Assembly (NCBI GenBank): GCA_017643215.1
Contig: JAEPNV010000014.1
Span: forward strand, 1 to 64,000
Direction: 5' to 3'
Source: Roseibium sp.
GTDB lineage: Bacteria > Pseudomonadota > Alphaproteobacteria > Rhizobiales > Stappiaceae
DNA length: 64,000 nt
A program made the translations under genes and the position numbers. Positions 17,123-38,963 of this stretch are shown piece after piece (position 1 is the stretch's first letter; each line of letters starts with the position of its first letter). The notes under the pieces are model-generated. The model did not search any database, was not told the DNA's origin, and saw only the letters and a list, made by a program, of their open reading frames with translations.

Positions 17123-17958
17123 AGATCTCCCCGCACATGCCAGAGTTCGGGGAAAAGTTCCACATCCAGCATCCGCTTCAGATAACTCACACCGGCCGTG
17201 CCGCCCGTGCCGCGTTTAAAGCCGATGACCCGTTCCACCGTGGTCACGTGGTTGAACCGCCAGCGCCGGAAGTAGTCCTCAAGATCGACCAGTTTTTCGG
17301 CGAGCTCATAGAGCATCCAGTGCTTCGAGACGTTCTCATAAACGATCTGCCATTTGGCCTTGATCTCGTCCTTGGCCTGGTGCGGGGCGTTCAGATCGGT
17401 CGCCGGCGGTTGGGCATTTGGTCCATCCAGCGTCTTATAGAGGAGGGCAACGGCATCGTCGTAAAAGCTCGGCCGGGACAGCTCCGCTTCCAGCGCCGCA
17501 ACGATGTCCGGATGGTGCGCATGCGGTTTGATCATGTTCGCATTCCGGTTGCCCAAAATGAACTCGATCATCCGATACTGCCAGGACTGAAAGCCGGAGG
17601 AGGGGCCGAGCGCATCCCGGAACTCGGTGTATTCGCTCGGCGTCATGGTGCGCAGGACATCCCAGGCGCCGTTGAGCTGTTCAAAGATCCGCGCGACCCG
17701 GGCCAGCATCTTGAAGGCGGGCGCCATCTCGCCGGCATTCATTTTTTCCCGCGCGCTGGTCAGTTCGTGGATGGCGAGTTTCATCCAGAGTTCGCTGGTC
17801 TGATGCTGGATGATGAACAGCATCTCATCGTGCGCATCGCTTAAGGGATGCTGCGCCGTGACGACCGGGTCTAGATGGAGATAGTCGCCATAGGACATGG
17901 CGTCCTTGAAATCCATTTTGGCCCCCTCGCGCCGGGGATCATAGGGAGACGGGCTCAT
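17119..17958 (-). CDS. kynA: tryptophan 2,3-dioxygenase
   Basis: A 279-residue haem dioxygenase that opens the indole ring of L-tryptophan to N-formylkynurenine. The family motifs [27 protein letters not shown] and the haem-ligand region [15 protein letters not shown] followed by [11 protein letters not shown] are all intact. It overlaps abmG upstream (ATGA at 17955-17958) and kynU downstream, a tightly coupled operon. Confidence 0.96.
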
Positions 17959-19583
17959 GATGCGTCTTTCAATCTGAAGCGCTGGATCTTGCCGGTGGCC
18001 GTCTTGGGCAAGGTCTCGGCGAACACGACCGAGCGCGGGTATTTGTAAGGTGCGATGGTCGCTTTCACGTGGTCCTGAAGGGCCTTGATCATCGCCTCGC
18101 CGGCGTCCGCTCCGGCGGCAAGCACCACATGGGCCTCAACGATGGCCCCGCGGTCATCGTCGGCAACGCCGATCACCGCGCATTCGGCGACCGCGTCATG
18201 GGCAAGAAGCGCGGCTTCCACTTCGGGTCCAGCGATGTTGTAACCGGAGGAAATGATCATATCGTCGTTGCGGGCGGCAAAATGGAAGTAGCCATCGGCG
18301 TCCCGGCTGAAAGCATCGCCTGTGATGTTCCAGCCTTCATGCACGTATTCGGCCTGGCGTTCACCGCCAAGGTACCGGCAACCGGTCGGCCCGCGCACGG
18401 CAAGCCGTCCGACCTCGCCGTCGGGCAAATCTGTGCCGTCCGGTCCAATCACCTTGGCTTCATAGCCGGTGACGGGTTTTCCCGTGCACGCCGGACGGTG
18501 ATCGGTGAACCGGTTGGAAATGAAGATGTGCAGGAGTTCCGTCGCCCCGATGCCGTCGAGCATCGGCTTGCCGGTCTTTTGCATCCATTCCTCGTAGACG
18601 GGCGCCGGCAGCGTTTCTCCGGCCGAGACCGCGGCGCGCAGGGACGACAAGTCCGCGCCTTCGTCCATCGCCTTCATCATGGCGCGATAGGCGGTCGGCG
18701 CCGTAAAGCACACGGTCGCCTTGTATTTCTGGATGATGTCGATCATGTTCGGCGGCGTCGCCTGCTCCAAAAGCGTCGCCGCGGCGCCGAAACGCAGCGG
18801 AAACACAGCCAGCCCGCCGAGCCCGAAGGTGAAGGCCAGCGGCGGAGAGCCGACAAAAATATCGTCGGGCTGAACGCCCAGCACCTCCTTGGCGTAGCCA
18901 TCGGCGATGATCAGCAAATCCCGGTGAAAATGCATCGTCGCTTTGGGCGCGCCGGTCGAGCCGGAGGTGAAGCCGAGCAGCGCGACATCGTCCTGCGAGG
19001 TTTCAACCGCATCGAACTTCACCGATTTTTCAAGCGCGAGCCGGTCGAGTTCCGCGTCGTGATTGGATGTGCCGTCAAAGCCAACAACCGTGTTGAGGAT
19101 CGGGCTGTCCTTCGCGCAGGCGGTGATTTCGTCCATCAGCCGTGTGTCGCACAGGGCATGGGTGATTTCGGCCATCTCGACATATTTCATCAACTCGCCG
19201 GCCCGCAGCATGGGCATGGTGTTGATGACAACGGCCCCGGCTTTGGTGGCCGCGAGCCAGCAGGCCACCATGGCCGGATTGTTGGCCGAGCGCACCAGCA
19301 CCCGGTTGCCGGGCTTGACGCCAAGATCCTCAACCAGCGCGTGGGCGAGGCGATTGGTCCAGTCGGCGAGCTCCTTGTAGGTCCGGCGGCGGCCGTTGCC
19401 GATCAGCGCCGTGTGGTCGCCGAAGCCCTTGTCCACCATGGCGTCGGTGAGTTCCACGGCGGCATTCAGCGTCTCGGGATAGTCGAAACCGTCCAGCAAA
19501 AGGTCCGGCCAAAGGTCCATCGGCGGCAGGTTGTCCCGCGCGAAGGTGTCGACGTGGGCCGACGGCAGCAGTGATCTTGCCAT
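17955..19583 (-). CDS. abmG: 2-aminobenzoate-CoA ligase
   Basis: A 542-residue AMP-forming acyl-CoA synthetase of the benzoate-CoA ligase subgroup. Visible motifs are [19 protein letters not shown] (AMP-binding), [19 protein letters not shown] (hinge) and the catalytic lysine in [15 protein letters not shown]. It most likely activates anthranilate to 2-aminobenzoyl-CoA, the substrate of AbmA encoded upstream, as in the Azoarcus evansii aerobic 2-aminobenzoate route. A benzoate or salicylate preference cannot be excluded from sequence. It is first in the abmG-kynA-kynU-ridA block. Confidence 0.87.
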
Positions 19584-19598
19584 GATCGATCTCCTTAA

Positions 19599-19776
19599 AG
19601 GACGCTCGCCGTCCTCAGACTGCTGGCTAAGCCAGCAGTTTTTTTCCTTAGGTCCTGCTCGAGCGTGTCCCGAGCATCCACAAGCTCCTGACTTTTCGGG
19701 GTCCTCGGGACGTTGCCCGAGGATGACAATCGATAAGAATCAGGGTTGTCATCAAACAGAGGACGCCAGGCGTCCT
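19599..19776. repeat. cluster of six inverted repeats (REP-like palindromic element)
   Basis: The 191-bp gap between the cupin gene and abmG is packed with hairpins. They are AGGACG/CGTCCT (19599-19615); ACTGCTGGCT/AGCCAGCAGT around a single A (19619-19639), followed by T7 on the + strand; TGCTCG/CGAGCA (19656-19676); TCCTCGGG/CCCGAGGA (19702-19723); GATGACAA/TTGTCATC (19722-19753); and AGGACGCC/GGCGTCCT (19760-19776), which overlaps the cupin stop codon. The 19702-19753 part, read on the - strand (TTGTCATCCTCGGG), resembles dispersed palindromic repeats seen in many alphaproteobacterial genomes. A role in mRNA processing or attenuation between the two operon halves is inferred. Confidence 0.6.
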
Positions 19777-20227
19777 ATTCATTCGCCTCCGGTGGCAGGA
19801 AATCGACGTCGTGTTCCGCGGAAACGCGAACCACGGCTTCGACATCCGTCATGTCGTGAAGCTCGTCGAACAGCTCCTTGAGCTTGCCGGCCGGAGAGAC
19901 CCAGAAGAGGGCTCGGCAGGGCTTGTCCGATTTGTTGAAATAGCCATGCGGCACGCCCATCGGCATGCGAACCAAATCGCCAGCCTGGGCCTTCACCCAC
20001 TTGCCATCCAGCTTCAGGTCCAGTTCACCGTCCTGAACGAGGATGAATTCGTCCTGGGTCGGATGAACGTGGACCGGGACGTGCTGGCCCGGCAGGGAGT
20101 TGGTTTCAAACGCGAACGTGCTCTCGCACCAGGCCTTCGGATAATAGGTCTGACCGAGGATATTCAGTGTCACTCCGTCAAATCCTTCGCCGTTCCGGGT
20201 AATGCCGCCGTCGAGTTTCTTGCCCAT
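19775..20227 (-). CDS. cupin-domain protein
   Basis: A 150-residue single-domain cupin. The metal-site motifs are recognisable: HVPVHVHPTQDEFILVQDGE (three His and a Glu) and the second motif GDLVRMPMGVPHGYFN. It lies in the 2-aminobenzoyl-CoA operon directly after the acyl-CoA dehydrogenase. It could act on a non-aromatic CoA intermediate or its product. It does not look like 3-hydroxyanthranilate dioxygenase, which has different metal spacing and length. Exact role unknown. Confidence 0.8.
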   Translation of the reverse strand: MGKKLDGGITRNGEGFDGVTLNILGQTYYPKAWCESTFAFETNSLPGQHVPVHVHPTQDEFILVQDGELDLKLDGKWVKAQAGDLVRMPMGVPHGYFNKSDKPCRALFWVSPAGKLKELFDELHDMTDVEAVVRVSAEHDVDFLPPEANE

Positions 20228-20254
20228 AGTCCTGTCCTCCCTGTTTGCCTGAAT

Positions 20255-21412
20255 TTAGTTCATCGCATTCATCGTCTGCCGTGCGATCACGACCCGCTGG
20301 ACGTCGGACGCGCCTTCGTAAATGCGCAAGGCCCGGATTTCCCGGTAGAGCCTTTCGACCGTCTGGCCGGCGCGTACGCCGTCGCCGCCATGAAGCTGGA
20401 CCGCCCGGTCGATGATCTGCTGGGCCTGATCGGTGGCAAAGAGCTTGGCCATCGCGGCCTCGCGGGTCACGCGCGGCGCGCCGGAATCCTTTGTCCAGGC
20501 GGCGCGGTAGACAAGAAGTGCCGCCGCATCGATGTCGAGCGCCATATCGGCGATGTGGCCCTGGACCATCTGCAGATCGAAAAGGGGTGCACCCTGGATT
20601 TGGCGGGTCGTCACGCGGTGAAGCGCTTCATCAAGTGCGCGCCGGGCAAAGCCGAGCGCGGCCGCCGCGACCGTCGAGCGGAAGACATCCAAAACGGACA
20701 TGGCGATCTTGAAGCCATCGCCCGGCGTGCCGATCAGGGCCGAAGCCGGCACACGGCAGTCGCTGAACCGCAAGGAGGCCAAGGGATGCGGCGCGATGGT
20801 GTCCAGACGCTCGGCGATCTCAAGGCCTTGTGTTTCGGCCGGAACGACAAAGGCGGACAGGCCCTTGGCCCCCGGCGCTTCACCGGTCCGGGCAAAGACC
20901 GTGTAGACATCGGCAATGCCGCCGTTGGAAATCCAGGTCTTTTCGCCGTCGAGCACGAAATGGTTGCCGTCGCGCGAAGCCGTCATGGTTGAATTGGCAA
21001 CATCGGAGCCCGATTGCGGCTCCGTCAGCGCGAAGGCGGAGATGGCCTTGCCCGTCCGCGTCAGCGGCAGCCAGTCGCGCTTCTGCTCCTCAGACCCAAA
21101 AAGTGAAATCGCGCCTGTCCCAAGCCCTTGCATGGCAAAGGCAAAATCGGCAAGGCCGTCATGGCGGGCGAGGATTTCCCGAATGAGGCACAGGCTGCGT
21201 ACATCGAGTGTCCCACCACCATCTGGATCGATCCCGGTAGGGGCGAGGTATCCATCGCTCCCCAGCAGGGCGACCAACTGGCGGCAGGCCGCATCGGTGT
21301 CGGAGTGATCCACCGTTGCTAGATGGGATGCGGCCCATTGGTCGAGTTCGGTGGCTAGGAGACGGTGGCGGTCTTCAAAAAAGGGCCAGGTGAGGAAGCT
21401 TGTGTCCGCCAT
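20255..21412 (-). CDS. acyl-CoA dehydrogenase
   Basis: A 385-residue FAD acyl-CoA dehydrogenase with the standard three-domain order. FAD/substrate motifs [16 protein letters not shown] and [13 protein letters not shown] and the C-terminal [20 protein letters not shown] with YEGASDVQR are visible. In this operon it should oxidise an alicyclic or ring-opened CoA ester made after AbmA. Its ATG shares one base with the stop of the enoyl-CoA hydratase frame (TGATG at 21410-21414). Confidence 0.9.
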
Positions 21413-22218
21413 CAGTCGCCCTCAAAAACCGGCCGCTCTTTGGCGACGAAGGCATTATATGCGCGCTTGAAATCCTCCGTTTGCATGCAGATCGCCTGGG
21501 CTTGAGCCTCAGCCTCGATCGCCTGCTCGATCGACATCGACCATTCCTGGTTGAGCATGGTCTTGGTCATCATGTTGGCGAAATTCGGCCCGGCCACGAG
21601 CCGTGCCGCCATGTCGCCCGCCGTTGCTTCCAAGTCACCGGAGGGAACAACGCGGTTGAAAAAGCCCCACGCATGGCCTTCCTCGGCGGAGAGCGACCGG
21701 CCGAAGTAAAGCAGCTCCGCCGCGCGGCCCTGGCCGATGATCCGCGGCAGGATCGCACACGCACCCATGTCGCAGCCGGCAAGGCCGACGCGATTGAACA
21801 GGAACACGACCTTGGCATCCGGTGCCGCGATCCTCAGATCAGAGGCCATGGCAATGATCGCGCCGGCGCCGGCGCACACCCCTTCAACGGCGGAGATAAC
21901 CGGCTTGCCGCAATTCATCATCGCCTTGACCAGGTCGCCGGTCATCCGGGTGAAGGCGAGCAGCTCTTTCATGGTCATCTTGGTGAGCGGTCCAATGATG
22001 TCGTGGACATCACCGCCGGAGCAAAAATTTCCGCCATTGGGCAAAAAGACAACCGCCTTCACATCCTCCGCGTAGTGAAGATCGCGAAACCAGTCCCGCA
22101 GTTCAGCGTAACTGTCGAAGGTCAGCGGGTTTTTGCGGTCAGGACGGTTCAAGGAAATCCGGGCGACACCGTCGGCAATGGCGCAGTTGAAATGCGTGAC
22201 ATCCGTGCGCATCGTCAT
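21412..22218 (-). CDS. enoyl-CoA hydratase/isomerase family protein
   Basis: A 268-residue crotonase. Oxyanion-hole motifs [15 protein letters not shown] and [20 protein letters not shown] are present, and the active-site region reads [16 protein letters not shown]. The start at 22218 is set by the ATGA overlap with the marR stop; the open frame reaches 22317, but that part lies within marR. It probably hydrates or isomerises the product of AbmA, in step with the SDR and acyl-CoA dehydrogenase encoded beside it. Confidence 0.88.
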
Positions 22219-22691
22219 GCCTTCGGCTCCTCCAGGCTGTGGATCAATTTGTCGAGCCGATGGCTCATCCCCTCGGTGTCGTCCGCGGACAGGCCGCCGA
22301 GCAGGCCGTCGATCCATTCCTCATGGGCCGCGGCGTGGTCGGCGAAGGCCGCGCGTCCGGTGTTTGTCAAACGCACCAGAGACGCCCGCCGGTCGCCGGG
22401 AACCGCGACACGCACTGCCAGGCCTTCCTGGGTCAACCGGTCGACAATACCGGTGATGTTGCCGTTGGAGACCCGAAGAAGTTCGGAAATCTCGCTCATT
22501 TTGAGCCCGTCCGAATACCGGAACAAGGCGGACATCACGTCGAACCGAGGCAGGGTGGACTGATACTCGTCCCGCAGCTTGCGCCGGATTTCCTCTTCGA
22601 TCCGGTTGCTGGCCTTCAACAGCTTCAACCACAGGCGCAGGCGTGTTTTGGAGAGTGGTTCGGCGGGTGATGCCTTTGTTTTAACGGTCAT
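22215..22691 (-). CDS. MarR-family transcriptional regulator
   Basis: A 158-residue winged-helix repressor. The DNA-reading helix ([20 protein letters not shown]) and the wing ([15 protein letters not shown]) are typical of MarR members. It is embedded in the abm operon between the SDR (ATGA overlap, 22688-22691) and the hydratase (ATGA, 22215-22218), so it is made in fixed proportion with the pathway. Related regulators of aromatic-CoA pathways sense CoA thioesters. The palindrome at 25792-25825 ahead of abmA is the likely operator. Confidence 0.88.
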
Positions 22692-23428
22692 ATTTCGCCT
22701 CCCGAAAGCGACAGCGTGTGACCGTTGACCGAACGGGCGGCCTCCGAACACAGCCAGAGGGCCGCGCCGGCCACCTCGTCGGTCTGAATGAAGCGATCCT
22801 GCGGATTGCCCTTGCGCAAGGTCTTGGCCGCGTCATCGGCGCTCATGCCCGTTTTCGCGACGATGTTGGCAATCGAGCGCTCCAGCATCGGCGTTTCAAT
22901 GAAGCCCGGGCAAATGGCGTTGACCGTGATGTTGGCCGGACCCAGTTCCTGGGCCAGCGATCGGGTGAGCCCGACGACGCCGTGCTTGGCGGCGCAATAG
23001 GCCGAGACATAGGGATATCCCTTGAGCCCCGCTGTGGAGGCGATTGCAATCATGCGCCCCCAGCCGACGGCTTTCATGTCGTAAAGCGCGGTGTGCCAGA
23101 GATTGAAAACGCCGAGGAGATTGACCGAAAGCATCGCCTGCAGTGTATCCGGCGTCATTTTGGAGAACGGAACGCTGTCGGCGGCCCCTGCGTTGGCGAC
23201 CGCGATGTCGATGGTTCCAAAGTCCTTGTGGGCGCCCTCAAAGGCGTGTTTGACCTGCTCCAAGTCCGTGACGTCGCAGACCCGGTAGGGAAGCCGCTGG
23301 GCCTTGAGCTTTTGTTCGTCGCGGCCGAGGATGCACACGCGGGCGCCGGCTTCTGCGAATGCGCGCGCGATTTCCGCGCCAACGCCCGATCCGCCGCCGG
23401 ACACCATCACATGTTTGCCGGCGACCAT
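22688..23428 (-). CDS. short-chain dehydrogenase/reductase
   Basis: A 246-residue classical SDR: cofactor motif SGGGSGVGAEIARAF, NAG motif VANAGAA, catalytic Ser in IAIASTAGLKG and the YVSAYCAAK catalytic Tyr/Lys. The AspGlyArg segment ILGRDEQKL after strand 2 may suit NAD(P). It probably oxidises a 3-hydroxyacyl-CoA-like intermediate in 2-aminobenzoyl-CoA degradation. It is joined to abmA by a TGATG overlap at 23426-23430. Confidence 0.88.
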   Translation of the reverse strand: MVAGKHVMVSGGGSGVGAEIARAFAEAGARVCILGRDEQKLKAQRLPYRVCDVTDLEQVKHAFEGAHKDFGTIDIAVANAGAADSVPFSKMTPDTLQAMLSVNLLGVFNLWHTALYDMKAVGWGRMIAIASTAGLKGYPYVSAYCAAKHGVVGLTRSLAQELGPANITVNAICPGFIETPMLERSIANIVAKTGMSADDAAKTLRKGNPQDRFIQTDEVAGAALWLCSEAARSVNGHTLSLSGGEI

Positions 23429-25725
23429 CAGACCTTCACCACCGCTTCGGCCTCGCGGTCCGCCAGGCGCCAGGTCTGGTCACGGCCGGCCAGATAAGGC
23501 GGTAGCCAGTCGGCGTGCCGGTCGCCGATCCGGGCGCCCTCGTGCAAGGTCCAGTAAGGATCCGACAAATGCGGCCGTCCGACGCACACGAGATCAGCAC
23601 GCCCGGCCATCAGGATGGAGTTGACATGGTCGGCCTCGTAGATGTTTCCGACGGCCATGGTCTTCAAATCCGCCTCGTTGCGGATCCGGTCTGAGAACGG
23701 GGTCTGGAACATGCGGCCGTAGACGGGCCTTGCATTGATGCTGGTCTGTCCGGCCGAGACATCGATGATGTCGGCGCCGGCGGCCGAGAACATCCGGCCG
23801 ACCTCGACCGCGTCTTCCGGCGTGATGCCGTCCTCGCCAACCCAGTCATTCGCGGAAATACGCACCGACATCGGCTTTTCCGCGGGCCAGACCGCGCGCA
23901 TGGCCTGAAAGACCTCGAGCGGATAACGCATCCGGTTGTTCAGGCTGCCGCCATACTCGTCGGCTCGCGTGTTGGAGACCGGCGAGATGAACGAGGAAAT
24001 CAGATAGCCGTGGGCCGCGTGCAGTTCGATCATGTCGAAACGGGCCCGCTCGGCCATTTCCGCGGCCGCGACAAACTCGGCCGTGATGGCGTCCATATCC
24101 GCACGGGTCATCGCCCGCGGCACGGCGTTTGTCCCCGACCAGGGGATGGCGGACGCGGAAATAAGCTCCCAATTGCCGGTCGCAAGCGGTGTATCCATGC
24201 CCTCCCAACCGATATTGGTCGACCCCTTGCGGCCCGAATGGCCGATCTGGCAACAGATCTTCGCATCCGTTTCGCCGTGCACGAAGTCAGTCAGGCGCGT
24301 CCACGCTGCTTCGTGCTCGGGCGCGTAAAGGCCCGGGCAGCCGGGGCTAATCCGGCCGGGCGCCGACACGCAGGTCATTTCTGTGTAGATGAGCCCGGCG
24401 CCGCCCTTGGCGCGCTCGCCATAGTGAACGAGATGCCAGTCGGTCGGGCAGCCGTCGACGGCCTTGTACTGCGCCATCGGCGAAACGACGACCCGGTTCC
24501 TCAGCTCCATCTCCCGGAGCTTGAACGGTGCGAACATCGGCGCGCGGACCGGGCCGTTGGCGGGGGCGCCGGCCTGGTCCTGGAACCATTTTTCCGCCGA
24601 GCGCAGCCAGTCCGGATCGCGCAAGCGCAAATTCTCGTGGCTGATGCGCTGCGAACGGGTCAAAAGCGAGTAGTTGAACTGGACCGGATCGAGATCGAGA
24701 TAGCGCTCGACTTCCTCGAACCACTCCAGCGAATTGCGCGCGGCCGATTGAAGGCGGAGGACTTCAAGCCGCCGTTCGTCCTGGTAACGTTCAAATGCCT
24801 CGGCAAGACTGGGCTCTGAATGGAGATAGTCAGCGAGGGCAATCGCGCTGTCAAAGGCCAAGCGCGTGCCGGACCCGATCGAGAAATGCGCGGTCGCGGA
24901 GGCATCGCCCAGGAGCACCACATTGTCGTGGTACCAGCGCTCACACAAAACCCGCGGGAAATTCATCCAGACGGCGGAGCCCCTGAGGTGCGCCGCGTTG
25001 GACATGAGCGCGTGACCGCCAAGGTGGTTCGCGAAGACCTTTTCGCAGGTCGCGATGGTCTCTTCCTTGGACATCGTCTCAAAGCCGAAGCGGTCCCACG
25101 TGTCTTCCGTGCATTCGACGATGAACGTCGCGGTGTCGGCGTCGAACTGGTAGACATGGGCCCAGATCCAGCCATGCTCGGTCTTTTCGAAGATGAATGT
25201 GAAGGCGTCGTCGAACTTCTGATGCGTGCCGAGCCAGATGAACTTGCATTTTCGGACGTCGACCTGCGGCTTGAAGTGCTCGGCGTAGGTGCCGCGGATC
25301 TTTGAATTGATGCCGTCGCACGCGACCACCAGATCGTAGTCACGCTTAAACGCCTCGACGTCGTCAAACTCGGTCTCGAACTTCAATTCGATCCCCAGTT
25401 CGCGGGCCCGTGCCTGCAACAGAACCAGCATTTTCTTGCGGCCAATGCCGGCGAAGCCGTGCCCGCCGGAAACCGTGCGCACGCCATTGTGGACGACCGC
25501 GATGTCGTCCCAGTAGGCAAAGTTGTCCCGGATCGCCTCCGCGCTTTCAGGATCGTTGTCCTGGAGGTTGTCCAACGCGTCGTCGGAGAGCACCACGCCC
25601 CAGCCGAACGTGTCGTTGGCTTTGTTGCGCTCGATCACGACGATCTCGTGGGCTGCATCGCGCAGTTTCATGGAGATGGCGAAATAGAGCCCGGCCGGTC
25701 CGCCGCCCAAACACGCGATGCGCAT
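23428..25725 (-). CDS. abmA: 2-aminobenzoyl-CoA monooxygenase/reductase (two-domain flavoenzyme)
   Basis: A 765-residue fusion. Residues 1 to about 385 form a group A flavoprotein monooxygenase ([14 protein letters not shown] at the N-terminus, [20 protein letters not shown] for the GD motif), close to salicylyl-CoA 5-hydroxylases. From about 390 to the end is an old-yellow-enzyme reductase ([51 protein letters not shown]). This order is that of Azoarcus ACMR, which hydroxylates and then reduces the ring of 2-aminobenzoyl-CoA. A GAAGGAGG site precedes the ATG. It is the first gene of the operon running to the cupin. Confidence 0.9.
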
Positions 25726-25825: not shown

Positions 25826-25877
25826 GCACGAATATCCTGATAAGGCGTTGAACTGTGCGGCAGTGAGGGAGCGCGCC

Positions 25878-26705
25878 ATGGCGGATACAAGTGGGATCGA
25901 CTGGGACGACGCCTTTGCGAACGGGCCCTATATTGACGGCGCAGCGGATTATCCGGGCCGATGGGCAGACAAGGCAGCGGCCTATCGGCAAGCACATGAA
26001 AACAAGGAGCTTGATGTTGCCTATGGCGATCATCCGCTCCGACGGTTCGATCTGTTCATGCCGTCAGGCACACCGCGCGGGCTGGCGGTGTTCGTGCATG
26101 GTGGATACTGGCTGAAGTTCGATAAGTCGTTCTGGTCACATCTGGCCGCCGGCGCTTGTGCCAAGGGGTGGGCCGTGGCTCTGCCGAGTTATGTTCTGGC
26201 GCCTGAAGCCCGCATTTCCGCAATCACGCGGGATATCGCCCGCGCCGTTGAGACCGCGGCGCGGAAAGTCGACGGGCCGATCCACCTTGCCGGGCATTCG
26301 GCCGGCGGCCATCTGGTCAGCCGTATGGCCTGCCAAGGCGGCCCGCTTGATACGCGCATTGCGAAGCGCCTTGAACGCATTGTGTCTATCAGCGGTCTTC
26401 ACGATTTGCGGCCGCTGCAACTGACCGACATGAACCAGGGGCTCCGTCTCGATCCTGATGAAGCGACCGCCGAAAGCGCGGCCTTGCAAGATCCACAGCC
26501 CGGGCTCGACATCGTGTGCTGGGTTGGCGCAAGGGAACGGCCGGAGTTTTTGCGCCAGACGCGCCTTCTGGAGGAAGCGTGGGGCCGGAAGGGGGCCACG
26601 ATCAACGCCCACTACGATCCTGGCCGGCATCATTTCGATGTGATTGACGGACTGGCGGATCTGAAAGGCGCGCTGACGAACGCCTTTATTGGTGTCCGCC
26701 CCTGA
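25878..26705 (+). CDS. arylformamidase (kynurenine formamidase), alpha/beta-hydrolase type
   Basis: A 275-residue alpha/beta hydrolase. The HGGYW motif (74-78) forms the oxyanion hole, the nucleophile is Ser141 in GHSAGGH, and the catalytic His is 251 or 252 in GRHHFDVIDG. HGGYW plus this length is typical of the eukaryote-like kynurenine formamidases, which hydrolyse N-formylkynurenine to kynurenine, the step between kynA and kynU. It is divergent from abmA and shares its promoter region. A GAGGGAG site precedes the ATG at 25878. The bacterial metal-dependent KynB family is different in fold. Confidence 0.85.
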   Translation: MADTSGIDWDDAFANGPYIDGAADYPGRWADKAAAYRQAHENKELDVAYGDHPLRRFDLFMPSGTPRGLAVFVHGGYWLKFDKSFWSHLAAGACAKGWAVALPSYVLAPEARISAITRDIARAVETAARKVDGPIHLAGHSAGGHLVSRMACQGGPLDTRIAKRLERIVSISGLHDLRPLQLTDMNQGLRLDPDEATAESAALQDPQPGLDIVCWVGARERPEFLRQTRLLEEAWGRKGATINAHYDPGRHHFDVIDGLADLKGALTNAFIGVRP

Positions 26706-26734: not shown

Positions 26735-27544
26735 TCACGGCTCCATCTGATAGAACCGCTGCCAGATCTTTTCGCCGATCATGCAGTCATAGCCCTCCGG
26801 AGTCAGCCCGGACCAGTCCGCGTTGATCACCGGCGGGCGAACAGGCGCTGGTTCCGGCAATCGTCCGGCAAGTTCCAGAATCAGTTTGCGCCGCACCGCG
26901 CCAGGAAACTCCTCCCAGCTGTAGACCGGGATCGAAAACGACAAGGGACCGCCAATCACGCATTCAGCGTAATAAAGGTCGAGGTCCTCCAGGTGAAACT
27001 GCTGGCCGGCCCCCTCACGGGTCATGAGGGGCAGGCCGTTGATGACAAATCCCTGGTAAACGAGTTCGTCGCGCACCTGAACAACGGGCGGGCCCATGTT
27101 ATTCGGACCGTCTCCAGAGACATCGATGACCTGACGCTCACCGAAGAAGCCGTTGTCAGCGAAGGACGCAGGCGCAAAGCCCAAAATGCCGGAAATGGAG
27201 GTCCGGCGGAGTGTCGTTGGCGGATTGATGGTGAGTTTGGCGGCAAATGCGTCAAGATCAGCCGGTGTTTCGATCAGCGTCCACGGAACCACGACCCGCT
27301 GCGAAAATGCCCCTGACCATTCCACGTAGGAAATCGCGACCTTGCCGTGATAGCCGGTCTCAATCGCCGCAAAAACCGCGGGATCGCGCAGGGCCGATGC
27401 ATAGCCACGGCGCTGGATTTCTTGCTCGTTTGTCGACATGGAATAGGAAATGTCGACAGCGAGCATGAGTTCCACATCGACGGGCGTTTCGGCCACCACG
27501 GCGGTCGGCAGGACTGTCAGCGCCAGAATTGCGGGCCATCTCAT
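26735..27544 (-). CDS. DUF1194 secreted protein (vWA-like)
   Basis: A 269-residue protein with an N-terminal signal peptide (RWPAILALTVLPTAVVA, then ETPVDVELML). The mature part opens with LMLAVDISYSMSTNEQEIQRRGY, a MIDAS-like DxSxS motif of von Willebrand A domains, and later has DVSGDGPNNMG. This is the DUF1194 family, common in alphaproteobacteria and functionally uncharacterised. The start at 27544 is chosen because it creates the signal peptide and has a GGAGGGA site; the frame is open to 27601. It converges with kynB and diverges from the dehalogenase. Confidence 0.85.
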   Translation of the reverse strand: MRWPAILALTVLPTAVVAETPVDVELMLAVDISYSMSTNEQEIQRRGYASALRDPAVFAAIETGYHGKVAISYVEWSGAFSQRVVVPWTLIETPADLDAFAAKLTINPPTTLRRTSISGILGFAPASFADNGFFGERQVIDVSGDGPNNMGPPVVQVRDELVYQGFVINGLPLMTREGAGQQFHLEDLDLYYAECVIGGPLSFSIPVYSWEEFPGAVRRKLILELAGRLPEPAPVRPPVINADWSGLTPEGYDCMIGEKIWQRFYQMEP

Positions 27545-27771
27545 CAACGCGTCCCTCCATCCGATCCAAAGATATCCCAAAACATGGCGGCGTTCGCGCA
27601 TAAGATGCCGCTAGATGCGTCGGCCGCTCTGGATAGATAGGATGTGTGACGCATATCGGAACCGTTGGTGCCACTCCGGCAGGCAAAAGCGCTGTCTCGA
27701 CCATATTCATTTGCGCCAGGATACGGTCGATAGTTACAGTTGAAACCATTCGCTTCTTTGGGAGGACGTGC

Positions 27772-30700
27772 GTGGGGCTTCGTTTTTTCAGTGACCGGGA
27801 CCGGCCCGTTCATTTGGGACCTTATCCGACCGAATGGCTCCGCCGCACGGACATCCCTGCCGATCTAGGTCGTGTACCGGCTCCCAAACCGGTACTATTC
27901 CGCCGGGCGGACCGGCCCGAAAACCTCGTCAACGCGATGGGCGAGTATCAGGCTATGCTCGACGCCATCCGCGACGGGATGGTCAACAGGGCCCGGGCGG
28001 ACATTCCCTCCGATCCCAAAGAGCGGGCCAATCATCTCAAAGCGTTCGGTTATTTTTCCGATGCCGCGATGGTCGGCATCTGCGCGCTCCCGGAGGCGGC
28101 GGTGTTGACGGTGCCGATTGAAAATCCGGACATCGGCCGGCTCGCCGAGGATCTGAAAACGCGTCAGACGAAAACGCTCGCCTCGGGCATCGATGTCATC
28201 ATGGCGGATCTCAAAGACAGCATGGAGGCGCCGCCGACCACGATCGACGGGCACACCCACGCGGTGGTGTTTCTCTATGAAAACCCGCGGGTGCCGGAAC
28301 CGGGTGAGCCGGGGGCGGACTGGATATCAGACGCGCTGGACCAGCGCGCGGCCTTGCGGGCCAATGAGACCGCGACAGTGATTGCCAACTACATCCGGCT
28401 ATTGGGTTTCGACGCCAAGGCCCATTCCGTCACTGCGGCGGACGTGGATCTTGGCCGGCTCGCGGTCACCGCCGGTCTCGCGTTGGTGGAGGAAGAGCGC
28501 CTTGTGGCGCCTTATATCGGCGAAAGCTTCGGGCTTGCCGCGATCACCTGCGCGCTCGACCTTGCCGTCGACCGGCCATTGGCGCCAATGCGCGACCAGC
28601 CCAGGTTCAAGGCGTTCGGCCCCGCCTGGTGGACCGGCAAGGGGGTGCAGAAATCAGCGCTCAACCGCGATCCGTTCAAACGGCGCCGGTTTGCCGATGG
28701 CCCGCATCCCTTTGAAAAACTGAAGCGCGTCGACGAACCGACAACCTTTATCGACGAGGACCGGGTCGCGCGCGTTCCGAAGCGCACGGACATGTTTGCA
28801 CGGGCCCAGTTCGGCGATATGGGCAAGGCCGTTCAAAACGGGGCGAAGGGCGGGCATTATGCCCGGAAGTCGGCGCCGAGTTTTGCCCAGCGCAGGGCGC
28901 TCGGCGCGTTTGTCCTGCTCCAGGACGGCGCCCCGGATCCGGATGGCGCCCGCCCGTCGGATCCGGACAAGAACGCTCAGACCATCAAGGCGGCCTGTTA
29001 TTTTCTCGGGGTCGATGCGGTGGGCCTGTCCAGGTGTCCGGACTGGACGTGGTACTCCCACGATGCGGCCGGGGAACCGATCGATCCGCCGCACGATCAG
29101 GCGATCTCAATGATCATCGACCAGGGCTATGAGACCATGGAGGGTGCCTCAGGCGATGACTGGATCTCCGTCGCCCAGTCCATGCGTGCCTACCTGCGGT
29201 TTTCGCTGCTCGGCGGGGTGATCGCCAAACAGATCCGCAACCTCGGCTACAAGGCCAAGGCCCACACGGTGCTCGATGGCGAGGTGCTTCAGCCGCCGCT
29301 GTTGCTCTTGTCGGGACTGGGCGAGGTCAGCCGTATCGGGGAGGTGATCCTCAATCCGTTTCTCGGACCGCGCCTGAAGTCGGGGGTGGTGACGACGGAC
29401 ATGCCGATTGCCCATGACCGTCCGATCGATTTCGGGCTGCAGAACTTTTGTGAGAACTGCAACAAATGCGCGCGCGAATGCCCGTCCGGCGCGATCACGG
29501 CCGGCCCGAAGCTGATGTTCAACGGCTATGAGATCTGGAAGTCGGACAGTCAAAAGTGTGCCACCTACCGGATCACAACGCCCGGCGGGGCCATGTGTGG
29601 CCGCTGCATGAAGACCTGCCCCTGGAACCTTGAAGGCCTTTTTGCCGAAACGCCGTTCCGGTGGGCGGCATCGAATATTCCCGCCGCCGCGCCCCTTCTG
29701 GCGAAACTCGACGACATGGCCGGCAATGGCGGATTGAACCCGGTCAAGAAATGGTGGTGGGACATCGAACTCCAGGACTACGGTGCCTACCGGCCGTCCC
29801 GCCATCCGGTGAACAGCCGCGATCTTCAAAAGGACCTGGACCTGAAATACGAGGACCAGACGCTGGCGGTCTATCCGGCGCCGCTTGCGCCGCATCCATG
29901 GCCTTACCCCTTTCCCATGGACCGGGAGGCCGGCATCAAGGCCTACGAGGTGCTGGTGGCCGCCGAGGAGTACTTGCAGAAGCTCGAGCGCGGCGAGACC
30001 GATCATCTCCACATCTATCAGGTTCCGGGGGATGCGCCGGTGCTTCCGGTCGTGGTCAGCCGCGTTGAGCACCTGTCTGGCACGACCGCACGTTTCGAAC
30101 TCCGCGCACTGGATGGTGGTCATCTTCCGCCCTGGACGGCCGGTGCGCATCTCGACGTGGTCGTTGCGCCGGAGTTCCTGCGCCAATATTCCTTGTGCGG
30201 CGATCCGGCCGACCACGGCCGGTACGAGATCGCCGTGCTGCGCGAAAACGGCGGCCGCGGCGGATCGGCTCTCTTGCACCGGATTTTTTCCAAAGGCCGA
30301 CGGATCTTTGTTTCCAAACCGATCAACCATTTCGAATTGGATGAAACGGCTGAAAAAAGTTTCCTCATGGGCGGTGGGATCGGCATCACGCCAATGATCG
30401 CCTTCGCCCACCGGCTTCACGCGCTGGGCCGGGAGTTCGAACTGCACTATTCCGCGCCGTCCCGGCAACAGGCGCCGTTTTTGGAAGAACTGACGCGCAT
30501 GACTTGGCGGGACCAGGTGACGGTGCATCTGTCCGCGGACGGGACGCGGGCCGATTTTGACCGGATCCTCTCCGGCCCTCCAGCAGATGCCCATGTCTAT
30601 GCCTGCGGCCCCGATCGCTACATGGACGCGGTCATGGCTGCCGCCGAACGGGCCAGCTTTCCCGAGGACGCCCGCCATCTTGAGTATTTTTCGGTCCCCG

Positions 30701-30984
30701 AGCAGCCGGACTACGAGAACCGTGCCTTCGTTCTACGCCTCAAGGACGGCCGCGAGTTCCGCGTGCCGGCCGACAGGACGGCGGCCGATGCCCTCAATGA
30801 AAACGGCATTCATGTCGACGTGAAATGCGCCGACGGCCTGTGCGGGGTCTGCAAGTGCGGGCTGATTTCAGGCGATGTTGAGCACCGGGACTTCGTTCTA
30901 TCTGCCAAGCAACGCGAAACCGCGTTGATCTTGTGCCAAAGCCGCGCCCGTGATCCGGATGGCGTTTTGGAAATCGACCTCTGA
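27772..30984 (+). CDS. self-sufficient cobalamin-dependent reductive dehalogenase with fused FMN/NAD/2Fe-2S reductase
   Basis: A 1070-residue catabolic reductive dehalogenase of the BhbA/NpRdhA kind. Residues 1 to about 330 are a degenerate RdhA-like repeat; compare LGFDAKAHSV (211-220) with LGYKAKAHTV (491-500). Residues about 330-720 are the catalytic half, with 4Fe-4S ligands Cys560/563/566/570 and Cys596/609/612/616. Residues about 755-1070 are a phthalate-dioxygenase-reductase-type module: RQYSLCGD (FMN), GGGIGITPMI (NAD), then CADGLCGVCKC (2Fe-2S). There is no Tat signal and no RdhB anchor, so it is cytoplasmic and probably NAD(P)H-driven. The GTG start has GGGAGGA 5 nt upstream. Tyr428 and Lys494 are candidate catalytic residues by position. 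Confidence 0.92.
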   Translation: MGLRFFSDRDRPVHLGPYPTEWLRRTDIPADLGRVPAPKPVLFRRADRPENLVNAMGEYQAMLDAIRDGMVNRARADIPSDPKERANHLKAFGYFSDAAMVGICALPEAAVLTVPIENPDIGRLAEDLKTRQTKTLASGIDVIMADLKDSMEAPPTTIDGHTHAVVFLYENPRVPEPGEPGADWISDALDQRAALRANETATVIANYIRLLGFDAKAHSVTAADVDLGRLAVTAGLALVEEERLVAPYIGESFGLAAITCALDLAVDRPLAPMRDQPRFKAFGPAWWTGKGVQKSALNRDPFKRRRFADGPHPFEKLKRVDEPTTFIDEDRVARVPKRTDMFARAQFGDMGKAVQNGAKGGHYARKSAPSFAQRRALGAFVLLQDGAPDPDGARPSDPDKNAQTIKAACYFLGVDAVGLSRCPDWTWYSHDAAGEPIDPPHDQAISMIIDQGYETMEGASGDDWISVAQSMRAYLRFSLLGGVIAKQIRNLGYKAKAHTVLDGEVLQPPLLLLSGLGEVSRIGEVILNPFLGPRLKSGVVTTDMPIAHDRPIDFGLQNFCENCNKCARECPSGAITAGPKLMFNGYEIWKSDSQKCATYRITTPGGAMCGRCMKTCPWNLEGLFAETPFRWAASNIPAAAPLLAKLDDMAGNGGLNPVKKWWWDIELQDYGAYRPSRHPVNSRDLQKDLDLKYEDQTLAVYPAPLAPHPWPYPFPMDREAGIKAYEVLVAAEEYLQKLERGETDHLHIYQVPGDAPVLPVVVSRVEHLSGTTARFELRALDGGHLPPWTAGAHLDVVVAPEFLRQYSLCGDPADHGRYEIAVLRENGGRGGSALLHRIFSKGRRIFVSKPINHFELDETAEKSFLMGGGIGITPMIAFAHRLHALGREFELHYSAPSRQQAPFLEELTRMTWRDQVTVHLSADGTRADFDRILSGPPADAHVYACGPDRYMDAVMAAAERASFPEDARHLEYFSVPEQPDYENRAFVLRLKDGREFRVPADRTAADALNENGIHVDVKCADGLCGVCKCGLISGDVEHRDFVLSAKQRETALILCQSRARDPDGVLEIDL

Positions 30985-31057
30985 CGGCCTTGTTCAGACG
31001 GGAACGCCGTCATTCGGCCCGCAAATCCGTATGAGGCGCGCGCCGGATCTACCGGTT

Positions 31058-33668: not shown

Positions 33669-35196
<1,528 letters not shown>

Positions 35197-36471
35197 ATGG
35201 CGACAGCGAAAGAGAAACAGACACTGATTGCGGAAGTGGACGGGAGCAAACGCGTGCATGCGCTTGATCCCGTCGATGATCGCATGCCGCCTGACAAAAG
35301 CGGCACGGGCAAGATCCAGAAGCTTGTTTTTCCGCCGTCCGAATCGCTCGACGCGATGGTCGATGACTGGAAAAGCCGATTGAGAATCGGCGGGATTGGC
35401 TCCTTTGCCATTCTCGTATTGCTGCCCACGCTTCTTGCCGGCCTTTATTTTTTTGTCATCGCCTCCGATCAATATGTGTCGGAGGCGAAGTTCATCGTTC
35501 GCTCCTCCGACAAGCAACAGGTCGGCGGGCTCGGCGCGCTGTTGCAGACAACCGGTCTTGGAACGGCGCCGGAAGAAACCTATTCGGTGATCGATTATCT
35601 GGTCTCACGCGACGGCTTGCGCGCGGTGGACGAAAAGCTGGACTATCAAGCAATGATGGGCAGCGACCAGATTGACTTTCTGGGCCGGTTTCCAAATCCG
35701 ATCGATGGCGACACCCGGGAGGGGATGTACGACCATTACCAGCGCCACGTGATCGCGCTGCACGATCCGTCCAGCGGCGTTTCGGAACTGACCGTGAAGG
35801 GTTTCACGCCGGAAAGCGCGGAACAAATCGCCCTGACGCTGCTTGATAGCGGTGAGCTTTTAATCAACAGGATGAACGAGCGCGCGCTTGACGATGCGCT
35901 GCAAATCGCCCGTGACGAAGTTCGGCTTGCCGAACAGCGGGTCTTGAACAATCAACTGGCAATGAAGGCGTTCCGGGTCCGTGAGGGAATCGTCGACCCG
36001 GAAGCGGAATCGGAACAGGCGCTGGAACTGATCAGCGAGCTGAAGGGCCGGCGTGCAGAAATCAGGACCGAGCTCAATCTGACCAGCCAGGTGTCTCCTG
36101 AAAGCGTCAGGAACAACATGCTGAGCGAGCAGCTCATCGCGATCGAAAAGCAGCTTGCGGCCGAACAGGCGCGGGTCATCAGCGAAAACGGCGCTCTGAT
36201 CGGCGCTTACGCCGATTATGCGAAACTGGCATTGGAAGGGGAATTTGCCGGGCAGGCGCTGTTGACGGCGGAGGCCAATCTCGCATCAGCGCGGGTCGAG
36301 GCATCGCGCAAACAGCTCTATCTGGAGCGTATCGTTGAACCCAACCGCCCTGACTATGCGCGGTATCCCAAACGGTTCCTGTCGGTGGTTACCGTATTCA
36401 TGACGGCGTTTTTGATTTATGCCATCATCTGGCTGCTTTATGTGAATGCGCGGGAACACAGGCATTCATGA
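35197..36471 (+). CDS. kpsE: capsule polysaccharide export inner-membrane protein (KpsE/CtrB-like)
   Basis: A 424-residue polysaccharide co-polymerase of the KpsE/BexC/CtrB class. Membrane helices lie near residues 65-90 (GSFAILVLLPTLLAGLYFF) and at the C-terminus (VVTVFMTAFLIYAIIWLLY), flanking a periplasmic domain with long coiled coils. VSEAKFIVRSS and VEPNRPDYARYPKR are family hallmarks. There is no Walker kinase, so it is not Wzc. The start at 35197 is preferred on content; the frame is open to 35104. It overlaps kpsM (ATGA). It links the ABC exporter to an outer-membrane pore not encoded here. Confidence 0.88.
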   Translation: MATAKEKQTLIAEVDGSKRVHALDPVDDRMPPDKSGTGKIQKLVFPPSESLDAMVDDWKSRLRIGGIGSFAILVLLPTLLAGLYFFVIASDQYVSEAKFIVRSSDKQQVGGLGALLQTTGLGTAPEETYSVIDYLVSRDGLRAVDEKLDYQAMMGSDQIDFLGRFPNPIDGDTREGMYDHYQRHVIALHDPSSGVSELTVKGFTPESAEQIALTLLDSGELLINRMNERALDDALQIARDEVRLAEQRVLNNQLAMKAFRVREGIVDPEAESEQALELISELKGRRAEIRTELNLTSQVSPESVRNNMLSEQLIAIEKQLAAEQARVISENGALIGAYADYAKLALEGEFAGQALLTAEANLASARVEASRKQLYLERIVEPNRPDYARYPKRFLSVVTVFMTAFLIYAIIWLLYVNAREHRHS

Positions 36472-37295
36472 AAACTGGGTCCTACATAACGCCCGACCAC
36501 AAGCTCCCATTGTGGAGCCGGTTTTCCGCGAAACTGGAATCGCAAAGCCGGGTCGTCGGCGCGCTGGTCATGCGCGAGATCCACACGCGGTTCGGCCGCG
36601 AGAACATCGGCTTTGCCTGGATCATCGCCGAGCCGGTGCTGTTCTGTCTCGGTGTCATCTTGATGTGGTCGATCGTAAAATCGGAAAACCACATTGAAAC
36701 GCCGATCGTTCCGTTTCTTCTGTCCGGTTATATGCCGCTGCTGCTCTACCGGCACTGCGTGATGCGGGCCCTGCGCTGCATGCAGGCGAACCTGGAGCTG
36801 ATGTATCACCGGCAGGTGACGATCTTTGCGATGTACATGGCGCGCATGGCCGTCGAGATCATCGGCACGATCGCGGCCTTTTTCATCACCGGCTTCATTT
36901 TCTTCATGTGGGGCTTTGTCAAAGTGCCGTACGACATGGGGCCGATCGTGCTCGGCTGGCTCCTTTATGCCTGGTACTCAGTGGCGGTCGCGATTACGAT
37001 CGGCGCACTCAGCGAGCGCTCGGAGGTCGTTGAAAAAATCTGGCATCCGATCTCCTACATCATGATTCCCCTGTCCGGCGCCTTTTACATGGTCGACTGG
37101 CTGCCCAAATCGGTGCATCACCTGATCATCCTGTTTCCGCAGGTCAGTGCCGTTGAATATATGAGGGGCGGGTATTTCGGTCCCGGGGTTCCGGTCTATT
37201 ACAATTTGCCGGTGGCGATCTACACCTCGGCCGTGATCACGGTGATTGGCCTCTATTTCCTCAAAGATGCCCGTTCCTACGTTGAAGTGACATGA
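36468..37295 (+). CDS. kpsM: capsule polysaccharide ABC exporter permease
   Basis: A 275-residue ABC-2-type permease with about six membrane helices, the membrane half of a KpsMT/CtrCD exporter. The segment [20 protein letters not shown] is the conserved N-terminal amphipathic motif of KpsM. It overlaps kpsE and kpsT by ATGA at both ends, so the three are co-translated. Confidence 0.9.
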
Positions 37296-37939
37296 TCCGC
37301 GTCGTCAATCTGGTCAAGGAATACAAGACCGGCCATATCCGGAAACGGGTGCTGAACGACGTGAATTTCGACGTCGCCCGGGGCGAGCGGCTGGCTGTGC
37401 TGGGCCGCAACGGCGCCGGCAAATCGACCCTGGTGCGGCTGTTGGGCGGGCTGGAATATCCAACCAGCGGCCATATCATCTGCGACATGTCACTGTCTTG
37501 GCCGCTCGGTCTGAACGGCGGCTTCCAGGGCAGCCTCAGTGGCACGGACAATATGAAGTTCGTCGCCCGGATCTATGGCAAGCCTTACCGGGACGTTTAC
37601 GACTTCGTGGAGTATTTTTCCGAGCTCGGCGCTTATCTGGAGGAGCCGGTCAAGACCTATTCCTCCGGCATGCGGGCGCGCCTGGCATTCGGCCTGTCGC
37701 TCGCGATTGATTTCGACTGTTATCTCATCGATGAGGTGATTTTTGTCGGCGACCAGCGCTTTCACCGCAAATGCCGGGAAGAGATCTTCGAAAAGCGGGC
37801 CGACCGGTCCCTTCTGCTTGTGTCACATGACGCGAACATCCTCAACGAATACTGCAACGGAGCGCTCGTTCTGCATGGCGGCCGGTCGAAGGTGTTCAAG
37901 GATGTGCCGCTCGCGCTCGATATCTACAACTCGCTCTAA
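37292..37939 (+). CDS. kpsT: capsule polysaccharide ABC exporter ATPase
   Basis: A 215-residue ABC ATPase with Walker [10 protein letters not shown], signature [14 protein letters not shown] and Walker [13 protein letters not shown]; the SSGM-type signature is typical of KpsT/CtrD. Short length and the lack of a C-terminal glycan-binding domain argue against Wzt-type O-antigen exporters. It powers export with KpsM. The operon probably ends here, since the next gene begins about 130 nt later after two hairpins. Confidence 0.9.
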
Positions 37940-37990
37940 TCGCATCTCCTTTTTCGCATTCCGTTCGGGCTCTTGGCTGGTTCCGGAGAT

Positions 37991-38020
37991 TGCTTTGCAA
38001 GCACCGTCTTTGTAAGACGG
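37991..38020. terminator. tandem hairpins after kpsT
   Basis: Two adjacent perfect stems: TGCTT/AAGCA (37991-38003) and CCGTCTT/AAGACGG (38004-38020), each with a 3-nt loop. No U-tract follows. They could be an mRNA-stabilising or attenuating structure between the exporter genes and the methyltransferase gene. Confidence 0.4.
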
Positions 38021-38072
38021 CGCGGGGAACCGGCGCGGCCGGCCGATGACAAGACTTCATACGAGAGACATC

Positions 38073-38963
38073 ATGGTTGCCGAAGGCATTCTGGAAAAAT
38101 ACAAACATATCGACGAGACTGCGGCACCGGATGGGTTCTTTACCAATTTCCTGGGGGTCAAGACCCGGATCGGCAATCTTCCGCAAGGGCCAGACCTCAA
38201 TGGCAAGGTCTTTTCCGACACGCCCGGTGCGGCCTCAGGCGACGGCGTGTTCGCCGGGCAAAGCGAATACAATGCTCTTTTGACCGCGTTGGACGCCTGT
38301 GTGGGGGCGGAAACGGTTACGATCGCGGAGTTCGGCGCGGGCTGGGGCCCATGGATCTCGGCCGCCGGGGTCGTCGCGCGCCGCATGGGCATTCCCGATA
38401 TCCGCCTGATCGCGGTCGAGGCCGATGCCTACAAACACAGTCAGCTCCTGTTGCATATGGAGGACAACGGCCTTGTTCGCGAAAATGGCGTGACCGTCAC
38501 GACCCACAATGCCGCCATTTCGCATAGCGACGGCGTGTTGCATTTTCCAAAGGACCTCAATCCACTGGATTATGGCGGGCAGGCCAGCGAGACAGGACAT
38601 TCGGTCGACTACCGCGGCATGGGCTATCAGACGATCGAAGTCCCTGCGCTGTCGATCGAAACAGTGCTCAAGGACGCCGGACCGGTCGACTATCTTCACG
38701 TCGACATTCAGGGGGCGGAATACGAGGCACTCCAGCCCTGCCGGTCGTTCCTGACGGAACACGTGAAGTACATGTTCATCGGCACCCATTCGCGCATGAT
38801 CGACGGACAGATTGTTGAACTCCTGCATGAGTGGGACTGGCAGATCCATATCGCCCATCCCTGCGGCTTCGTTCATGACCGGTCCGTACCGACCCTGGAA
38901 GGCATGACCGTTGCCGACGGTGAGGTGTTTGCGTCCAATCCGCGTTTGACAGGCTCAGATTGA
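38073..38963 (+). CDS. FkbM-family methyltransferase
   Basis: A 296-residue class I SAM methyltransferase of the FkbM type. The SAM-binding motif I is AEFGAGWGPWISAAG, and the FkbM hallmark VDYLHVDIQGAEYEALQ is clear. Such enzymes O-methylate sugars or sugar acids in surface glycans and natural products. The start at 38073 has GAGAGA 4 nt upstream; an in-frame ATG at 38046 is an alternative. It lies between the capsule exporter and a glycosyltransferase, so a capsule or glycan substrate is likely. Confidence 0.82.
   Translation: MVAEGILEKYKHIDETAAPDGFFTNFLGVKTRIGNLPQGPDLNGKVFSDTPGAASGDGVFAGQSEYNALLTALDACVGAETVTIAEFGAGWGPWISAAGVVARRMGIPDIRLIAVEADAYKHSQLLLHMEDNGLVRENGVTVTTHNAAISHSDGVLHFPKDLNPLDYGGQASETGHSVDYRGMGYQTIEVPALSIETVLKDAGPVDYLHVDIQGAEYEALQPCRSFLTEHVKYMFIGTHSRMIDGQIVELLHEWDWQIHIAHPCGFVHDRSVPTLEGMTVADGEVFASNPRLTGSD

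Follow-up and report, generated by a model that had tools for sequence, protein, structure and literature searches.

Within a 64,000-nucleotide stretch of the alphaproteobacterium Roseibium sp. (Stappiaceae; GenBank assembly GCA_017643215.1, contig JAEPNV010000014.1, positions 1 to 64,000), referred to below as the window, a single gene encodes a fused, self-sufficient reductive dehalogenase in which an RdhA-type catalytic half and its own reductase lie on one chain (Table 1). The frame is read through without an internal stop. Its GTG start is plausible given the GGGAGG just upstream and the start codons found at the same place in relatives: of 116 distinct relatives, 62 have ATG opposite residue 1, 3 have GTG, 2 have TTG and 49 have some other codon, and the examples examined from this last group have an ATG two codons later. 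Judged by eye, the translation has no visible Tat-type (twin-arginine translocation) N-terminus, and the spaces flanking the gene, 170 base pairs (27602-27771) and 73 base pairs (30985-31057), could not hold an RdhB gene next to it.

Table 1. Features of the window: the fused dehalogenase gene with its parts, followed by the neighbouring genes
Feature	Position	Strand	Basis
Self-sufficient (fused) catabolic reductive dehalogenase, 1070 residues, GTG start, TGA stop	27772..30984	+	translation, profiles, PDB matches, residues
GGGAGG, probable ribosome-binding site	27760..27765	+	read from sequence
Degenerate N-terminal repeat of the RdhA core that binds cobalamin, residues 161-270	28252..28581	+	internal alignment
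Catalytic RdhA core, residues 441-620, with Ser470, Met471, Tyr474, Lys536, Arg600	29092..29631	+	profile, PDB, alignment
Two 4Fe-4S motifs, Cys560/563/566/570 and Cys596/609/612/616	29449..29619	+	alignment
Phthalate-dioxygenase-reductase-like module, residues 760-1067: flavin, NAD(P) and 2Fe-2S domains	30049..30972	+	PDB, Pfam, alignment
2Fe-2S ferredoxin domain, residues 993-1059, Cys1019/1024/1027/1055	30748..30948	+	Pfam, alignment
DUF1194 gene, divergent from RdhA	26735-27601	-	
Alpha/beta hydrolase	25857-26705	+	
Aryl-coenzyme A (aryl-CoA) catabolic cluster	17955-25725	-	profile matches

The protein matches the NCBIfam model TIGR02486 (RDH) with 194.4 bits against a cut-off of 160.35. 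Pfam PF13486 (Dehalogenase) gave no match in the protein or in its genome, and control genomes likewise gave none; the RDH assignment rests on TIGR02486, on the PDB relatives and on the active-site residues. Comparison with the PDB identified NpRdhA of Nitratireductor pacificus (PDB identifiers 4ras and 6zxu) over residues 2-106 and 160-730 with an E-value of ~1e-163, and phthalate dioxygenase reductase (PDB identifier 2pia) over residues 762-1067 with an E-value of 1.2e-57. Within this reductase module the Pfam family Fer2 lies above its cut-off and FAD_binding_6 and NAD_binding_1 below theirs. The motifs RQYS at residue 804 and GGGIGITP at residue 867 are presumably those that bind flavin mononucleotide (FMN) and NAD, respectively. 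Our alignment covers 117 distinct loci including that of the window and yields 116 fused proteins, or 117 rows once NpRdhA is added; L119, whose extrapolated reading had a stop before the start, was left out. Every cysteine of the two 4Fe-4S motifs is a cysteine in 117/117 rows, the four ligands of the 2Fe-2S cluster are cysteines in 116/116 fused proteins, and F342, S470, M471, Y474, K536 and R600 (equivalent to F291, S422, M423, Y426, K488 and R552 of NpRdhA) are invariant in 116/116. The first-pass annotation of this DNA, made from the letters alone, had placed both 4Fe-4S motifs and a complete FMN/NAD/2Fe-2S reductase on one chain; the cysteine positions that it gave are exact, and the match to 2pia together with the invariant 2Fe-2S cysteines bears out the reductase.

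The same annotation had also recognized two RdhA-like repeats in the 1070-residue chain, and the internal alignment agrees with it, for residues 161-270 could be aligned with residues 441-552 with a score of 141, compared with a mean of 32.3 (standard deviation 4.7, maximum 51) over 200 shuffles. In the N-terminal repeat, Ala194 lies opposite Tyr474 and Gly254 opposite Lys536. Across the 116 proteins, the equivalent of Tyr474 is Cys, Ala or Gly (77, 36 and 3 proteins) and never Tyr, and that of Lys536 is Gly, Ser, Thr or Ala (87, 14, 10 and 5 proteins) and never Lys. This degenerate repeat corresponds to the vestigial core that PMC10463259 reports in catabolic RdhAs.

A search of the contig database confirmed 509 relatives, and the best 80 of the 509 are 70-79% identical to the window protein over nearly the whole length, which excludes a chance likeness. 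Of these best 80, 79 carry no label outside the Alphaproteobacteria and the other, L046, is labelled a Flavobacteriales metagenome-assembled genome (MAG). The RdhA of L046 is 70% identical, the DNA downstream of it is similar to that of L047, a contig from a Rhodobacteraceae MAG, and the L046 contig is probably misbinned. The fused RdhA is present in 34/87 Stappiaceae genomes including that of the window, with 31 of the 34 above the profile cut-off, and this makes its commonness in one family visible. Among 289 genomes drawn from the class, nine match at an E-value of at most 1e-150, six with a full-length fused protein (the host included) and three with the RdhA part only. Homologues of bhbA are described as widespread across the Roseobacter clade in PMC13101508.

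Several enzymes of known function can be compared with the window protein. JtRdhA of Jhaorihella thermophila (WP_104007082; PMC10463259), from a marine host, has the same architecture and, by its published description, the same named active-site residues and no Tat signal; its activity has been proven biochemically, whereas the window protein is known from its sequence. Purified JtRdhA debrominates ortho-bromophenols with NADPH and accepts a wide range of bromophenols; it converts bromo and iodo substrates, the chloro-analogues tested being inhibitory only (PMC10463259). BhbA of Comamonas sp. 7D-2 (WP_015585978, plasmid pBHB) shares the full-length architecture and has 50.7% identity across 100% of the query; unlike the window copy, it belongs to a degradation cluster that includes LigAB and a tripartite tricarboxylate transporter (TTT) binding protein. 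NpRdhA shares the duplicated RdhA core and the active-site residues, with 45.2% identity over 568 aligned positions, and, as PMC10463259 describes it, lacks the reductase module, unlike the window protein. Ros_A3X954 of Roseobacter MED193 (PMC13101508) is a debrominase of a marine Roseobacter and is reported to be oxygen-sensitive; its 4Fe-4S motifs at 283-294 and 337-345 suggest a shorter RdhA of another type. Thus, the kind of enzyme is already known and biochemically characterized, and the window protein is an ordinary, well-formed further example, which joins the reductive dehalogenases driven by NAD(P)H in aerobic marine alphaproteobacteria. The first-pass annotation had overlooked that the substrate class is already defined by the work on JtRdhA (PMC10463259).

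We consider the protein, with a probability of roughly 0.87, to be a soluble, cytoplasmic, cobalamin-dependent reductive dehalogenase with its own reductase, which would most likely debrominate phenolics whose products are used as carbon. The scheme described for JtRdhA in PMC10463259 leads from NADPH through FMN, 2Fe-2S and 4Fe-4S to cobalamin, with a proton from a Tyr-Lys/Arg dyad. From JtRdhA, BhbA and NpRdhA we infer the electron path, the reaction and the bromine preference of the window protein. Hydride from NADPH (or NADH) would reduce FMN, from which single electrons would pass to the 2Fe-2S cluster, the two 4Fe-4S clusters and finally the cobalamin; its reduced cobalt would take the halogen, most likely bromine, ortho to the phenol hydroxyl, and Tyr474 with Lys536/Arg600 would supply the proton. 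As JtRdhA left the tested chlorinated analogues unconverted, the natural leaving group of the window protein is also likelier to be bromine or iodine. The dehalogenated phenolic acid would then serve as carbon, and its most likely exit would be 4-hydroxybenzoate via PobA and protocatechuate 3,4-dioxygenase, a 4-hydroxybenzoate-type substrate being our conjecture. To the architecture, residues and family placement observed here, the host genome adds genes for CobN (1599 bits, contig C22), PobA (648.8 bits, C39:140514-141683) and PcaH (360.2 bits, C39:146809-147474), so that bromo-4-hydroxybenzoate could be debrominated and used by the host. A search for cobalamin genes had been suggested earlier, and CobN, the one examined, is the gene found. 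The exit through 4-hydroxyphenylacetate, which was used for JtRdhA in E. coli W according to PMC10463259, is less likely in the host because HpaB had no match in its genome.

It is extremely improbable that the protein is instead a relative of epoxyqueuosine reductase (QueG) without dehalogenase function. Both QueG and RdhA are class III cobalamin enzymes, as PMC10463259 states, and the window protein does match the QueG model TIGR00276 weakly, but its 23.7 bits fall far short of the cut-off of 200 and of the 194.4 bits obtained for RDH, the Tyr-Lys/Arg residues are conserved, and a separate true QueG is encoded on contig C11 of the host genome (452.8 bits for TIGR00276). The assignment to RdhA rather than QueG made in the first-pass annotation is thereby upheld, and the phylogeny that it had proposed also separates the two. 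A tree calculated from 32 catalytic cores joins the window protein to that of Roseibium aquae (support 97/92) within a group of 26 alphaproteobacterial fused enzymes (95/99), adjoined by BhbA together with a Nitratireductor OM-1 protein and by NpRdhA; the respiratory PceA and QueG lie beyond a branch supported at 100/99, and these outgroup branches are long, that of QueG reaching a length of 10. The branch uniting the 28 fused enzymes apart from NpRdhA has a support of only 53/44. A first tree, calculated with a mixture model, had outgroup branches as long as 10, and we did not take the placement from it.

Some observations weigh against carbon use by way of debromination as proposed above. 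Within the window no gene for transport, regulation or ring cleavage could be shown to be coupled to RdhA, and the cobalamin pathway was judged from CobN as its single representative. PobA occurs in 78/87 family genomes, in 32/34 carriers of the fused RdhA and in 46/53 non-carriers (Fisher p 0.47); it has no power as a discriminating co-occurrence and, not tracking RdhA, it supports plausibility only. The enzyme might also detoxify halogenated phenols, for example natural algal bromophenols, rather than open them to feeding. Such a role would suit the patchy distribution over 34 of the 87 family genomes, the variation of the surroundings of RdhA between clades and the wide range of bromophenols taken by JtRdhA (PMC10463259). 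We consider it unlikely, if well worth keeping in mind, as import genes of the TTT or tripartite ATP-independent periplasmic (TRAP) type and ring-cleavage genes adjoin several relatives, fitting uptake and catabolism; the Nitratireductor OM-1 relative, for instance, is found near pobA and an extradiol dioxygenase gene. A different substrate is suggested by the aryl-CoA cluster, which starts about 2 kb upstream and encodes a benzoate-CoA-ligase-family protein, an acyl-CoA dehydrogenase, an enoyl-CoA hydratase, a MarR regulator, a short-chain dehydrogenase/reductase (SDR) and a bifunctional salicylyl-CoA 5-hydroxylase/oxidoreductase (1295.8 bits), with the benzoate-CoA-ligase-family and PRK08255 proteins above their NCBIfam cut-offs. 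We take this cluster to resemble the 2-aminobenzoyl-CoA/salicylyl-CoA pathway, and RdhA could feed it by acting on halogenated derivatives of salicylate, of anthranilate or of compounds on the tryptophan-kynurenine route. This appears very doubtful: the cluster is on the opposite strand with the DUF1194 gene and the hydrolase intervening, the bifunctional hydroxylase and the cluster MarR have no relative beside RdhA in the 116 other loci (E-value of at most 1e-10 over half of the query), and all matches there to the CoA ligase, acyl-CoA dehydrogenase, enoyl-CoA hydratase and SDR are below 45% identity. The locus of the closest relative, that of R. aquae (L001), has the DUF1194 gene (65%) and lacks the aryl-CoA cluster, and we reject a functional link between the cluster and RdhA because the cluster is not conserved beside it.

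The window itself, then, offers no clue to the substrate of RdhA. The DUF1194 gene is held in common, at the same place, with R. aquae alone among the loci. The two genes downstream of RdhA gave no Pfam or NCBIfam match at an E-value of 0.001 and have no relative in the RdhA loci. Sequence of at least 6 kb is available on both sides of RdhA in 82/117 loci (23/34 of the family and 59/83 others); an earlier neighbour comparison had covered 98 loci, among which 13 had almost no flanking sequence.

The relatives are more informative. Using profile hidden Markov models built from neighbours, we found a TRAP substrate-binding protein within 6 kb of RdhA in 18/34 family loci (the window, which has none, included), in 6/83 other loci and in 0/40 control regions drawn from eleven genomes of the host family, a control value that is flattering, for the TRAP profile was made from the very neighbours of RdhA. 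A wider search, in which DctP queries were used singly and four of them are the longest frames of L178-L181 from the host genome, taken without individual check, gave 19/34, 8/83 and 3/40, respectively (p 7e-6 for family versus controls). Loci outside the family are not enriched (8/83 versus 3/40, p 1.0; 6/83 versus 0/40, p 0.18). The density of TRAP genes in the host genome, with 21 DctP-like matches, predicts about 5% by chance, and the binomial P of at least 18/34 is 3e-15; all these p values overstate the evidence, since loci within one lineage are not independent. A MarR gene lies directly upstream of RdhA on the same strand in 15/34 family loci and on an Aminobacter plasmid, and in 14 of these 15 and on the plasmid the TRAP genes are located upstream, on the opposite strand; in the remaining locus, L105, they lie downstream. 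A DctM-DctQ-DctP set divergent from MarR-RdhA is seen in L106, L110, L118, L121, L097 and others, and in L096 the MarR gene is on the other strand without TRAP genes. Other TRAP orientations occur in L001, L007/L117, L014 and L020, and from these differences the link seems to have arisen more than once.

TRAP systems transport organic acids. Given that they adjoin RdhA, the substrates in the TRAP-linked strains are probably halogenated aromatic carboxylates, and the recurrent TRAP and MarR neighbours provide a testable guess at natural substrates, about which little is known for such enzymes. We tentatively propose, as a possibility that could well fail, that in Stappiaceae, and in at least one case outside (Aminobacter), TRAP (DctP-DctQ-DctM), MarR and the fused RdhA form a regulated uptake-dehalogenation module for imported halogenated aromatic carboxylates, which the window copy would have lost or never had locally. 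Both the positive result in 3/40 controls and the absence of enrichment beyond the family weaken this proposal. A window copy of the module was sought among the 21 DctP-like matches of the host genome, and the best of them has 31% identity and none is an evident orthologue of the DctP in the module. The papers listed in a literature search for reductive dehalogenases together with TRAP transporters concern, by that listing, Chloroflexi or Desulfitobacterium, and the original BhbA paper, which lay outside these results, may discuss transport; the transporter link in relatives may be the only new part, and we do not claim novelty for the idea.

With the R. aquae protein the window protein shares 79% identity, but with the copies from its own genus that are linked to TRAP and MarR it shares 64-69%, and on the first tree, which is rough, the rows of the host family need eight changes, only three of which are forced by starred branches. 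Horizontal movement of the fused RdhA is therefore likely, though not proven. No single conserved operon was found across the RdhA family, as neighbours vary by clade. A LysR gene, named by eye, lies upstream of RdhA in 19 loci, mostly of Ruegeria, and molybdenum-hydroxylase-like genes, likewise named by eye, are found near RdhA, the three subunits in 17, 12 and 21 loci, respectively. In Ruegeria loci (L013, L033, L050 and others) a three-subunit set that by eye looks to be a molybdenum hydroxylase of the CoxM/CoxS/CoxL type lies downstream, on the strand of RdhA, and a divergent LysR gene is often present upstream. Farther along the window itself, at about 33669-38527, genes resembling those of nucleotide-sugar metabolism and capsule export could be discerned by eye.

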